Source of the DNA: Arabidopsis thaliana | Lineage: Eukaryota; Streptophyta; Magnoliopsida; Brassicales; Brassicaceae | Direction: 5' to 3' | Assembly (NCBI RefSeq): GCF_000001735.4 | Contig: NC_003076.8 | Span: 7,874,001-7,938,000 of the forward strand | Length of the DNA: 64,000 nt | In this document: in pieces, positions 2,831 to 13,725 of the stretch | Layout of the letters: every line of letters begins with the position of its first letter | How positions within the stretch are numbered: the stretch's first letter is position 1 | The notes under the pieces: model-generated | What the model was told of the DNA's origin: nothing | The model's input: the letters and a program-made list of their open reading frames with translations, nothing else | Database searches by the model: none | Program-made: the position numbers and the translations under genes

Positions 2831-5800
2831 TTGAAACTATATACATAATAATCTCTTGATTCTTCAGTGTTTGTCACATAGAATAAAGTCCACTCGCTGT
2901 CCCGAGTTCCATTGTTTGATACGGTTTTCGATTGCCAATCTGTTATGAATTAAGATATTTTATTTATTGTCAATTAGTTTTGAATTGAAAACTCTAATTT
3001 TATATTGGTACCAAAATCTTCGAAGACAATATTCCTCTAAGATTTAATTATGATGAGTTAAAGATCATCCTAGTTATTGTCAACTAATTTTGTGATTCCT
3101 CAAAGTTTTTCCGTTAATCTTTCAACTATTATGAATCGTCATTGGTTACATTTTCTTTTTTTTTTTTTTTTTTGTGCAAACATTGGTTACATTTTCTAGA
3201 TATTTCTTTCTTCAAATGAACCACAAAGAAAGAAAAGTTCAATTTTTCGTAACGATAAAACAAACAGCAAAAAAGAAGTAAAAAGATTTGAATCTTAGGT
3301 TGTCAAAGTGAAGGTAGGGTCAAACTTTTTAATATAAAACCCTGAAACACGAAAATGGCTTTGCGAACCCACATTATCGACATATATTAACAAGTAACGA
3401 CTCCCATTATCATCAATTCTGGCTGTCAATATCGAAACCCTTTTTTTCTAATTCAAATTTTGAAGACCTTTCGTAACTTAATTATAGATTAAGGATTAGT
3501 GCATACTATTTCATTAACTTTTGTTGGAGATTTTTTTAGAAAACTAATGAAAAGATTCTAAATAATATAACGTTCTTTTTCCTTTTTCTAATAATATAAT
3601 GGTTATTGATTTTAAAATACAAGATAATGTTTAAAATTAAGATAGTTAGAACTTTTAATTGAAACATTTGGTACTTATTTTTTAGACTTTTTAAAGTACT
3701 AACAATAAATTATTTTTGTTGTAATTTTTCGGACATGATTTGTCCTTCCTCATGTCGGGTTACGATTTTGTATGTTGGATTCCAACTCATGCTTAGTCAA
3801 AGAACGTTCAAGATATTCACTGCTCCTAACTTGTTTTCTAGATATTTTGTGCGTAAAGCATTTGCTTCATGAACTTTAGTCCTCGCATGTTCACTAGTAT
3901 TAAAAAAACACTGAAGCTTCTTCGGTCGATACTTAGTCAAAAACTCCATCAGGTTCAACAAATCCAGTTTCAATATTTGATGATAGTATAAGCGATCGAG
4001 TTATGCCATAGATGTCTTCTTTTTCTGTATTGGAGATCGATACTACCTACCATTGGCAAGTTAGTTTGGTATGTATTCGTTTAGTGTCTACCCATTTATT
4101 CTACAACACGACAACGAGAAAAGACTGCCTTGACAATGTTCTTAATGTCAAATTAAAATTGGACTATGTGACTAGACGAATAATCAAGTTTGGACGATAA
4201 AGAGGTTGTTAGTTTCGTAAATTTGGATTATGCCCATGCAAATGATACTAGTTTAATTTTGGTATAATTACCAAAAATATTTGATGAAACAAAAAAATTA
4301 TATTTTAAAATTATTATAACCATAGAAACATATTGCATTCCAAATCGGAAAAAGGTTATAGTTCTACATATATCATATATATCATCAAGCTTGTAATCTT
4401 GGAGTTTGTAATAGTAAATAACTCAAATTCGATATGACTTGTGTCTAATTCATGTGAGTTATATATACAATATGCTTGGTTATGTCCTACATGGACCATT
4501 CTTACGTCAAGCCGCAATTGACGCACTTAAAATACACTTGAGAGAAAGAAAAACTTAAACAAATCGAAATCAAAGCCTTACCAACAGCAAATAAAGTTTT
4601 CAAACAACAAACTTGCCCAAGAAAAAAAAAAGTTTTTTAAACAAACTCTCATGACCAACATTAAGTTTTTGTTTTTCAACTTAGCTACTGTTCTCTAGAT
4701 TTGGATCGACATTATCATATCTATTGTCGCCATAACGAATTGAACTTGACTATAAAAGTATCTTACTCCTGTGAGAGAAAAAAAATACGTTTATCAATCA
4801 AATATACAATACCAAATGATTAGAGCTCATAGTTTAGTTTACACTAAGTACCGTAGTACGTAGACATTTTATGACGGATACAAATATCATATATTTAGAA
4901 AAGTAAATTATGTTTTATACTTGAAAGTAAATATTTATTGAGAAAGTGAGTAAAGTAAATGTAACCTTGATACTAAATTATAAAGAAATGTTATGGAGTA
5001 AATTTTGAAATTAGAGTTACAAAATACTAAAAGTTAAATTAAAAATTCTTAAATGATCAAGATCACTTTGAAATGCATCATTTTAAGTCAACACAAGCTA
5101 AAAAGTACTAATAATGACGTATGATGCGATAAATTATCAACAGTGTAGTGTCAAGTTGTTAATGAATTATTTAGAGTTGAATTATCATTTATAACATATT
5201 ATTGGTGCATGACAAAGTTGTCTTTGGTGACCACATAATTGATGGGATTGGGAGCTGTGTTATTGTCGATTACAAAAATAAACTTTGTTGTTTTTATAGC
5301 AATGCAATTAGAACAAAATTGCTATAATACTAAAGAGTTTGTTTACTTTTGAGGAAAAAGGTCAAGAAATTGAGAATGATGGTTTTAAATCCTTGAGTTG
5401 CATATTTTTCGACGACCCATATCTAATGTTTTAATTTCCATCTTGATTTGTCTTATAACAATATCAAAGTTGATTAAACAACAAGTTTCCAAAATTAGCA
5501 TCACTATAAAAAAAGAGTATTCAAATGACTTTGATTGCAGCACAAAATTTTCAACGACCCATCTCCAATTTTTTTAAAAAAATCCATCTTAATTTTTCAT
5601 ATAATATATGAAAGTAGATTTATCTCAAATCAACAGGTTGGCAAAATGAACATCGCTAATATTCAACAATCAAATAGTATACTCCTATCTCAACCCCATC
5701 CTCAAATGCTAAAAAGGTTTGGTGTTCGCTGGTTCAATACATTTATCATGCTAATTCAAAAATGATCAAGAGTGTATTTAATAGAAATCGATAGTTCAAC

Positions 5801-10919: not shown

Positions 10920-11107
10920 CATATACTATCATCTTTAGCGTGACGTAATGTAGTCGTAGAGGTGTTGCTGCTATTTTCCACTTGGACTCTCTTCCTCGGC
11001 TTTGCTGCATTTGAATTCGTCCAAGGACTAGCCATATCTTCACTTTATATGACTTGTTTATATTCTGCCTTTAGTTGAGCAGCTTTATCCAAATAAACTT
11101 TCTTCTC
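10920..11107 (-). pseudogene. Chimeric HMGB relic: exon 7 fused to exon 1 of another copy
   Basis: On the minus strand, 11107 to about 11045 is HMGB exon 7 (EKKVYLDKAAQLKAEY, after a TTTAG acceptor). A few bases later a new ATG at 11035 opens HMGB exon 1 (MASPWTNSNAAKPRKRV, then SSNTSTTTLRHAKDD), ending at the donor G|GTGAGA near 10920. HMGB6 exon 1 reads MAGPSTTSNAPKQRKRV, then SSNTSTTLRRAKDG. The tail of the upstream pseudogene therefore runs into the head of another copy whose remaining exons are absent. This is what a deletion or unequal crossover between tandem copies would leave. Confidence 0.75.
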
Positions 11108-11201
11108 CTAAATGGTCAGAGAACACGAACCATAGTAAGAAGACAGTAAACAAATCACCATAAAACTAATGAAGAAACAAGAAATTAAATAAAGCAACTC
11201 A

Positions 11202-12996
11202 GAGCAAGACCATTGGTAAGTCCTTATAAAGGAATCCTTACATTTGTATAATAATAAATTTTGAAAATTTTAAAGTTTAGAGTTTTTGTAGAGTCTTTAC
11301 ATTTTTTACTGTCCAGTGGTAGAATCCTTAAGTGAATTTTTTTTTTAAAAAAAACCAGTCATTTTGGATGAAGAACTTGCCATTTTGGATGAACTAGTAT
11401 TTTGATGAAATTAAATAGGTTTTAGCTTTGTATTGGAGTTTGTGTACTTTACTTGTTCGGTTTCTTCATTCTATTTACTTGAGGTGTGTGTGATTATTTC
11501 TACTTTTGGGTTTGTTGACATATGTCATAACTCAGTGGCTTCTCTTTTGGATGTTATGTGTTCGCATGCTTCAGAGAAGCCTTTTGGTACGTCAAAATCA
11601 AATGCTACATGGTCATGTAACAAGGAGTAAGTATATTATAGAAGGATCTCATACAGCAAACCCATTAACATCATTACATTAATATCTAAAGCGTACAACA
11701 ATCACTAATTTACTATGTACACACGCTTCTGTCATAAGAGTTTGGAATGTGACAGATACATAACCACAAACCAAATGAATAAGGAAAGAGTCTTTACAGA
11801 TCCGAGTCTTGCCAGCTAGCCAAGCAGAGTTCATGTAATTCATTGAGTATCCATTCCTCACCATTGTGACCACCAAGGACCAATACTCTAGTTCCTCCAA
11901 CAACGCATGTGCTATGTCCCCAAGCTAACTTGGGTGGTTTCCCTGGGACATTCAGGATCCTCCATGACGGTTTCTCTTTTGAAGGATCTATTAGGAATAG
12001 TTGCGAAGGAGAGTGAAGCCCTGCAATAGACCCTCTAAGATGATGACCCTACCACACGGCATTCTCACAACCACATTAAAGACTTGCACAAACCTGAATG
12101 TTGAAAAGATGAGAAAGGTAACATCTTGAGATACCAAAGGCCTAAGAAAAAGAAGCACTTGCCTCAACAAGTCTCACCTTCAACAGATTCCATCTCGTGT
12201 TTGGTTTCCCAATCACCTAGAAGACCAAGTAACACCATTTTCCATTAGTTGATACATCTTTTCAGAGGAATTTCATCGAACACATTCAAGTCACAAACCA
12301 CAGCAGATATCAAAAATAAGAAATTTTTGAAAACCACACAAAGTGTAATGATGAGATGGAATTGTTACCTCCTCAGACAATGTTGAGGCCGAAGAAGAGG
12401 AGGATACGAAAAAGATCACAACCTAGACCCGTTTTGTCAGGACAATTGATGGTTATAACACTCGGGTCACCTTCTTTCTCCGATTGACTGATTATCACTA
12501 CGTTGTCCGAAAAATTCCCATCTTGTGATTGTGATTTATTCTTGCTTTAAGCTCTAATTGTGATTTCTTCCTCAAAACTATCTTATTAATCTTCTCTCTC
12601 CGATTTGGTTCATCAAAATCGCCGATTATGTTCGAAGTCACAGATGTTGAGACCGTCGGTTGAGATGATGATCACGGCGGAAGGGGGACGATTTTCTTCG
12701 GTTATCTTCTCCAATTTGATGATGTGGACGCCGCATGAAGCTGATCGAGAGAGAATTCATCCGGAGAAAACAAGAGAAGAGAGACAATGATTTCGCAAAC
12801 AGAGGAAAGAAAAAAAATTGTTTTGTCTCTTACCTTACCCAATGGGAAACCACCACGTATACGCACCTAAAACATCACAAAATACCTAAGCTAAGGTGCG
12901 TACCTTGATTAATTTCATTTTTCTGATTTAATTTTGGCTTCTTTTTGTAAGGATTCAGTACTAGAAACTCTTAAGGACCCTCCAATGGAGGTGGTC
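11202..12996. mobile_element. Harbinger-like TIR element carrying an FKF1 gene fragment
   Basis: The 1795-bp insertion is flanked by a 3-bp direct repeat TCA (11199-11201 and 12997-12999). Its ends are imperfect terminal inverted repeats: left GAGCAAGACCATTGG then GTCCTTA; right, reverse-complemented, GACCACCTCCATTGG then GTCCTTA. Removing it restores the intron 6 donor (GAT|GTGAGT) of the HMGB copy exactly as in its paralogues. The T-N-A target duplication and TIR style suggest PIF/Harbinger, but no transposase is present. It is non-autonomous and carries captured host sequence. A GC-richer exon-like block at about 12600-12790 was not identified. Confidence 0.75.
11794..12083 (-). pseudogene. 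Captured FKF1 C-terminal kelch fragment
   Basis: On the minus strand the segment reads MPCGRVII, then after a 1-base deletion near 12037 continues in another frame as [58 protein letters not shown] and [12 protein letters not shown], to a stop at 11796-11794. I recognise this as the last two kelch repeats and native C-terminus of FKF1, the LOV/F-box/kelch blue-light receptor (ADO3). The LOV and F-box domains are missing and the frame is broken, so it is not a functional gene. Its orientation is the same as the host pseudogene. Confidence 0.8.
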
Positions 12997-13725
12997 TCAC
13001 ATCCTTAGTCATAGAGTTCCACTGTTCAACACCGAACTTTGCAACCTACAATAGCACAGTTTAGTAAATCACATAAACACTAAACATAGTAGTCAAAGCA
13101 TAGCAATGAGCAAAGTTAAAAGTCATACATCCTTAATGAGAGTACCAAGATAATCTTGTCTAAAAGATTTACGGAAACCATTCCTGCAAAGTGAAAGAGC
13201 AACATCCATCAGCATCATCCCTAAAGAGTATACAACTTATATCAACAAAAAGTAAGTATGAAACGATGAACATTACATGAAGATACAGAAGGCGGTAAGA
13301 GGTGGCTTGGCCTTTCTACGCCTCATTGGTTCATGTTCATCAGATTCTGTCTCAACATCTGAAGCTTCTGAACAACAAACACAACAACCAAATCCACAGA
13401 GATTATGATAACACTGAAAACACAAAATACAGTAAGGAGGGGAAACAACAAAAGAGATGATGATTACCTGGATACTCCGAACAAAAAATCAAGGCTACAC
13501 ATGTGAATGCTTATAAGCTCTACATGAACTTTCTGGTTACATTTTTCACTGAATTTTCAACCCAAAAAAAAAGTTGTGAGAAGCCTTGGAAATCCCAATC
13601 GGTAAACCCTAAACCGAACAAAAATTCGACTGAAAATAGATCCAAAGAAGAAGAAATCACCAGCGAGTGAAGATAGCACTGCCATCTTTAGAGGTGTTGC
13701 TGCTACTTTCCGTTTCGCCTGACAT

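Follow-up and report, generated by a model that had tools for sequence, protein, structure and literature searches.

Evidence for a non-autonomous PIF/Harbinger Pack-TYPE transposon with fragments of FKF1 and ACR10 in an HMGB intron of Arabidopsis thaliana

The Pack-MULEs of rice carry gene pieces within elements bounded by TIRs, and Mutator-like transposons are characterized by a 9-11 bp target duplication and long TIRs; Helitrons have neither TIRs nor a target duplication and insert between A and T. Within the PIF/Harbinger superfamily, Pack-PIF elements are known from maize and rice and transduplication by PIF elements from grapevine (Gisby and Catoni, 2022, PMC8903248; Benjak, 2008, PMC2528002). 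For the Pack-CACTA elements of Arabidopsis (Catoni, 2019), which have a 5-bp target site duplication (TSD) and CACTA ends, capture by fusion of neighbouring insertions was proposed, as summarized in two later articles (PMC13317346, PMC8903248). A 2022 automated scan states that it found no new Pack superfamily in Arabidopsis (PMC8903248), and a 2020 review names MULE- and CACTA-derived Pack elements in this species, to which a 2021 review adds Harbinger ones. Because of this mention we do not claim a first case in Arabidopsis. According to a 2026 review, an undiscovered capture route for unlinked fragments may still exist (PMC13317346).

The element described here is a new, well-defined case of this known type of gene shuffling and not a new type; it is a clean Pack-Harbinger example with two donors and a rough date, from the plant that has been studied best and for which the automated scan reported none. 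It resembles the Pack-PIF elements of maize, rice and grapevine in its PIF/Harbinger ends, in the 3-bp duplications around gene fragments and in being present in several copies, but differs from them in its host Arabidopsis and in having captured from two unlinked donors in one direction. With the Pack-CACTA elements it shares the species, the captured genes and the organization as a non-autonomous TIR element. However, those belong to another superfamily, and their proposed fusion takes up the DNA between the insertions, which in one step gives no account of one donor on chr 1 and another on chr 2. Like the rice Pack-MULEs it contains gene pieces between TIRs, but the 3-bp duplication and the short, imperfect TIR of 15 bp rule out a Mutator-like origin, and the presence of TIRs and a TSD rules out a Helitron.

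The window, i.e. the whole stretch of 64,000 nucleotides that was analysed, corresponds to 7,874,001-7,938,000 of contig C5, taken to be chromosome 5. It contains a tandem array of three minus-strand HMGB copies, and the element lies in an intron of the middle one. It is an insertion of 1795 bp at 11202-12996 with imperfect 15-bp TIRs, of which 11 of 15 bases are identical, and a TCA duplication. Its parts and surroundings are as follows (positions in the window):

11043..13725, minus strand: host gene, the middle HMGB copy, with exon pieces at 13661-13725, 13276-13367, 13126-13183, 13001-13045 and 11043-11107
11199..11201: left target site duplication TCA; the site is uninterrupted in both HMGB paralogues
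11202..11354, plus strand: left terminal region with the TIR GAGCAAGACCATTGG; at least 38 further places match besides the two full copies, at 73-83%
11350..11402, plus strand: internal piece of the transposon, with a homologue past the Plant_tran remnants of locus L070 (79%) and partly of L069 (84%)
11415..12076, minus strand: FKF1 (chr 1) fragment; 3' untranslated and downstream sequence at 11415-11793, last ~94 codons and stop at 11794-12076
12069..12106, minus strand: ACR10 piece a, an exon end and the beginning of the next intron
12109..12526, minus strand: ACR10 piece b, which covers intron 1, exon 1 with the start codon and some of exon 2
12527..12542: filler of ~16 nt, a copy of adjacent ACR10 sequence (ATTGTGATTTATTC vs ATTGTGATTTCTTC)
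12543..12599, minus strand: ACR10 piece c, from upstream of the start codon (5' leader), 57/57 identical
12597..12996, plus strand: right terminal region with the TIR GACCACCTCCATTGG, given from the end inward, and with 68% identity over its length to locus L012
12997..12999: right target site duplication TCA

On the plus strand the junctions read ...CAACTCA / GAGCAAGACCATTGG at the left and CCAATGGAGGTGGTC / TCACATCC... at the right, and in a three-copy alignment the uninterrupted site is CAACTCACATCC in the first HMGB copy and CAACTCACTTCC in the third. Since these two copies have the uninterrupted site, the element entered the middle copy, and the insertion proposed in the initial annotation agrees with the empty sites in both paralogues of this genome (2/2). 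The annotation had given the coordinates, the TIRs and the TCA flanks of the 1.8-kb insertion correctly to the base, and had also placed it rightly directly after donor base 4 of the intron (GTGA, then the element). The longest start-to-stop frame within the element has 74 aa, so that it is without a transposase of its own, and the two donors together with the transposon ends account for most of its interior.

One further full copy, likewise of 1795 bp, is present at C5:17132874-17134668 on the minus strand (best 40 of 69 candidates scored), a locus which we take to be AT5G42730. As a copy of equal length with the same ends occupies an unrelated site, the insertion is not a product of chance, and the earlier claim withstood the search for other copies with the same ends. 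The second copy is flanked on both sides by TAA and the window copy by TCA, and no similarity was found between the flanks of the two at E 0.01 (1.5 kb each side). The copies differ by 11 substitutions and no indel (99.4% identity), giving K = 0.0062; at 7e-9 substitutions per site and generation they would have separated, very roughly, ~0.4 million generations ago. Eight of the differences fall in captured sequence, and the donors assign three of these to the window copy and five to the second copy. Compared with the 0.0062 between the copies, the captured sequence diverges from its donors by about 5-6%, and the age of the capture therefore appears to be several times that of the separation of the copies. 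Movement after capture, a trait of Pack-TYPE elements, is seen in the same captures being present in two copies at unrelated sites. In a literature search covering few subscription journals, no paper with FKF1 and ACR10 together and none with AT5G42730 was found.

The first ~150 and the last ~180-400 bases of the element match many diverged elements. For the left end there are at least 40 matches, both full copies among them (40 of 49 candidates scored), the others being 73-83% identical, and for the right end at least 25 including the two full copies, with the others at 67-84%. Ten relatives could be projected to both ends, and seven of them combine TIR-like ends with equal flanks of 3 bp (six TTA/TAA, one TGA), the TGA flank of locus L013 being the TCA of the window copy on the opposite strand. 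Two others, L014 and L017, have unequal flanks, and L023, left out of the count of seven, has equal flanks but no TIR-like sequence at its projected right end. In a second set, TTA or TAA pairs occur at BLAST-defined ends in 11 of 21 loci, with both ends defined by BLAST in nine and the right end alone in L018 and L022; of the remaining ten, eight gave no pair and two gave pairs at other end points alone. The two sets overlap, as five of these 11 loci are also among the ten relatives. The relative L012 (C5:13566644-13570894, 4251 bp) has both ends present, TTA/TAA flanks and pieces of Plant_tran (PF04827) in broken frames, and thus shows the TIRs and subterminal regions of the element in common with a transposase-bearing relative, as is typical for PIF/Harbinger. 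The 3-bp duplication, usually TTA/TAA in this superfamily, is TAA at the second copy, while TCA in the window is off the usual sequence. Furthermore, positions 48-133 of the element match the Plant_tran loci L032, L035 and L036 at ~76%, and the 53-bp stretch 149-201 matches sequence of L070, and partly of L069, that lies past the remnants of Plant_tran. Because of the latter match beyond the transposase remains, the element looks like an internal-deletion derivative whose transposase-bearing middle was seemingly lost. A near-identical parent without captures was not found among the matches listed, the best full-length relative of the left end being 82% identical. The initial classification as a Harbinger-class Pack-TYPE element is supported by the TTA/TAA duplications, the TIRs in common with a Plant_tran relative and the captured genes.

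Pack-TYPE elements carry fragments of host genes between TIRs, and here both donors are still in the genome, FKF1 on chr 1 and ACR10 on chr 2. The terminal kelch region of FKF1 with a 1-base deletion, already recognized in the first reading, is indeed present, but that list of captured content was incomplete, as ACR10 at 12069-12599 had been overlooked. The FKF1 piece (element positions 214-875) is identical to the chr 1 donor at 595 of 625 ungapped positions in the BLAST alignment, extends about 380 bp beyond the stop and has its 1-nt deletion within the coding part. The donor frame contains PAS, F-box and kelch repeats, and the PDB entries nearest to its PAS part are Adagio 1 and 2; we take it to be FKF1 from the initial annotation and from what is known of this family, not from gene annotation. 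A weaker match of this piece at C5:23244035 (72%; best 40 of 69 candidates) is presumably an FKF1 paralogue. The chr 2 donor was identified as ACR10 by Pfam PF24914, and its three pieces (element positions 868-1398) keep the order of the donor. The largest piece is identical to it at 392 of 418 aligned bases and contains a 1-nt deletion ~11 nt into the reading frame as well as in-frame stops. Since intron sequence of ACR10 is retained, genomic DNA and not cDNA was captured. C/G to T/A changes amount to 2/20 at CG and 9/152 elsewhere in ACR10 and to 5/30 and 12/233, respectively, in FKF1, the latter from an alignment that misaligns a repeat region (48 differences in 631 columns, against 30 in 625 in the BLAST alignment used for identity), and with so few sites these counts do not support a methylation-type decay.

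Both captured genes lie on the minus strand, as does the HMGB host, resulting in a 5'-ACR10/3'-FKF1 chimera. At the FKF1/ACR10 junction the donors have CAT in common, at the junction of ACR10 with the right end both sides have TCTC, and the 16-nt filler between two ACR10 pieces differs from neighbouring ACR10 sequence by one change over 14 nt. The transposon/FKF1 and the first internal ACR10 junctions, two of the five, show no defensible overlap. Short overlaps at two junctions out of five, together with the copied filler at another, are the trace that template-switching repair synthesis would leave, although overlaps of 3-4 bases are, one by one, weak evidence. We infer that an internally deleted Harbinger element gained the FKF1 and ACR10 pieces, most likely when a gap or double-strand break within it was repaired and both genes were copied with template switches at short matches. 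Members of this superfamily are mobilized by the Harbinger transposase together with a Myb-like partner. A Plant_tran-type transposase from elsewhere would then have moved the element and brought it to its two places on chr 5, the HMGB intron being one. Two successive captures fit equally well, whereas one fusion event between a pair of insertions flanking a single locus would not account for donors that lie on different chromosomes (chr 1 and 2). Overall, it is very likely that the element is a non-autonomous PIF/Harbinger Pack-TYPE transposon that captured pieces of FKF1 and ACR10, presumably by repair, and was presumably mobilized in trans; against this speak the TCA in place of TTA/TAA, the relatives with unequal flanks or without the expected ends, the lack of a close parent and the broken transposase of L012. 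The junctions are sharp enough to bear on the mechanism of gene capture.

Captures are also found in other elements of this transposon group. L023, from C1:17488937 (right end not fixed), contains a fused frame of 169 codons (3152-3658, minus strand), whose first part matches at 75% a chr 5 locus encoding COP9 signalosome subunit 4 (CSN4) and whose second part has a Ras-family domain (Rab GTPase). As in the ACR10/FKF1 element, both parts have minus-strand orientation, and it is the Rab end that lies close to the left terminus. Elements at C4:5174258 and C4:1395728 match the Rab part at 88-90%. Another 1.8-kb pair, L071 (C4:2036357-2038156) and L072 (C3:20852154-20853955), is 98.9% identical with TAA/TTA duplications and represents another element of the group that moved fairly recently. 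L071, L072 and L073 have ~400 bp in common with C5:6629313-6629706 (90-91%), and in this sequence and in the places matched by the interiors of L018 and L014 no gene was recognised. ACR10/FKF1, CSN4/Rab and the other shared interiors indicate that capture is recurrent in this group. In both chimeras examined for orientation (2/2), one gene contributes its 5' part and the other, near the left end, its 3' part. We tentatively consider, as a possibility that is still rather doubtful, that this Arabidopsis Harbinger group repeatedly assembles such directional chimeras of two genes, with repair switching templates between unlinked loci. If true, its way of capturing genes would differ from the fusion of tandem insertions that was suggested for Pack-CACTA.

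It is conceivable, though improbable, that the element is still functional, either through RNA feeding small RNAs that tune FKF1 or ACR10 or as a long non-coding RNA with a role of its own. Exact runs of 67 nt in common with FKF1 and 73 nt with ACR10 would be long enough for small-RNA cross-talk, and the window copy has 174 21-mers in common with FKF1 and 155 with ACR10, the second copy 154 and 155, respectively. Since the FKF1 piece is co-directional with the HMGB gene, read-through from HMGB would be sense and not antisense to FKF1. According to one paper, repeated in a review, AT5G23410 is a long non-coding RNA induced by leaf ageing and a proposed miR169 decoy. By the gene numbers it should lie between HMGB12 (AT5G23405) and HMGB6 (AT5G23420), i.e. 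putatively at the middle HMGB copy, where it may correspond to the element; the decoy claim finds no support within the element. The best miR169 site there has eight mismatches, and 13 of 30 shuffled elements reached six or seven. The named donors, one of them the flowering-time photoreceptor FKF1, make small-RNA feedback testable with existing public data.

A protein role for the chimera is unlikely. That it encodes, now or formerly, a selected protein with the ACR10 start fused to the FKF1 kelch end would agree with the co-directional pieces, the start codon at the 5' side and the FKF1 stop with its 3' flank at the 3' end, but is hardly credible, as the deletion ~11 nt into the ACR10 frame leads to a stop after seven residues from the ATG, another stop lies in the exon 1 remnant and FKF1 has its own 1-nt deletion. 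Differences at the three FKF1 codon positions (4/93, 2/94 and 7/94) give no clear sign of constraint, the numbers being small. Both copies carry the frameshifts and stops, and since no indel separates them, the frameshifts are older than the separation; with decay preceding it, any present role would be that of a non-coding RNA or of a modifier of HMGB processing. An equally slim chance is left for a segmental duplication or a repair insertion of repeat-bearing filler DNA, which could explain an interior that is a patchwork of unlinked pieces, but the flank comparison speaks against the former, and both copies end exactly at the TIRs with different 3-bp duplications, dissimilar flanks within 1.5 kb and many relatives with similar ends.

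That the host is an HMGB pseudogene, as had been stated, is not established, because the HMG-box exons on either side of the insert are open. The middle copy (11043-13725), with its HMG box open around the insertion, ends early and is without the acidic tail of its neighbours. Just downstream of it, on the minus strand at 10932-11046 of the window, lies an HMGB exon-1-like fragment that is 81% identical to the third copy in the region of its first exon and suggests a fourth, truncated tandem HMGB copy.
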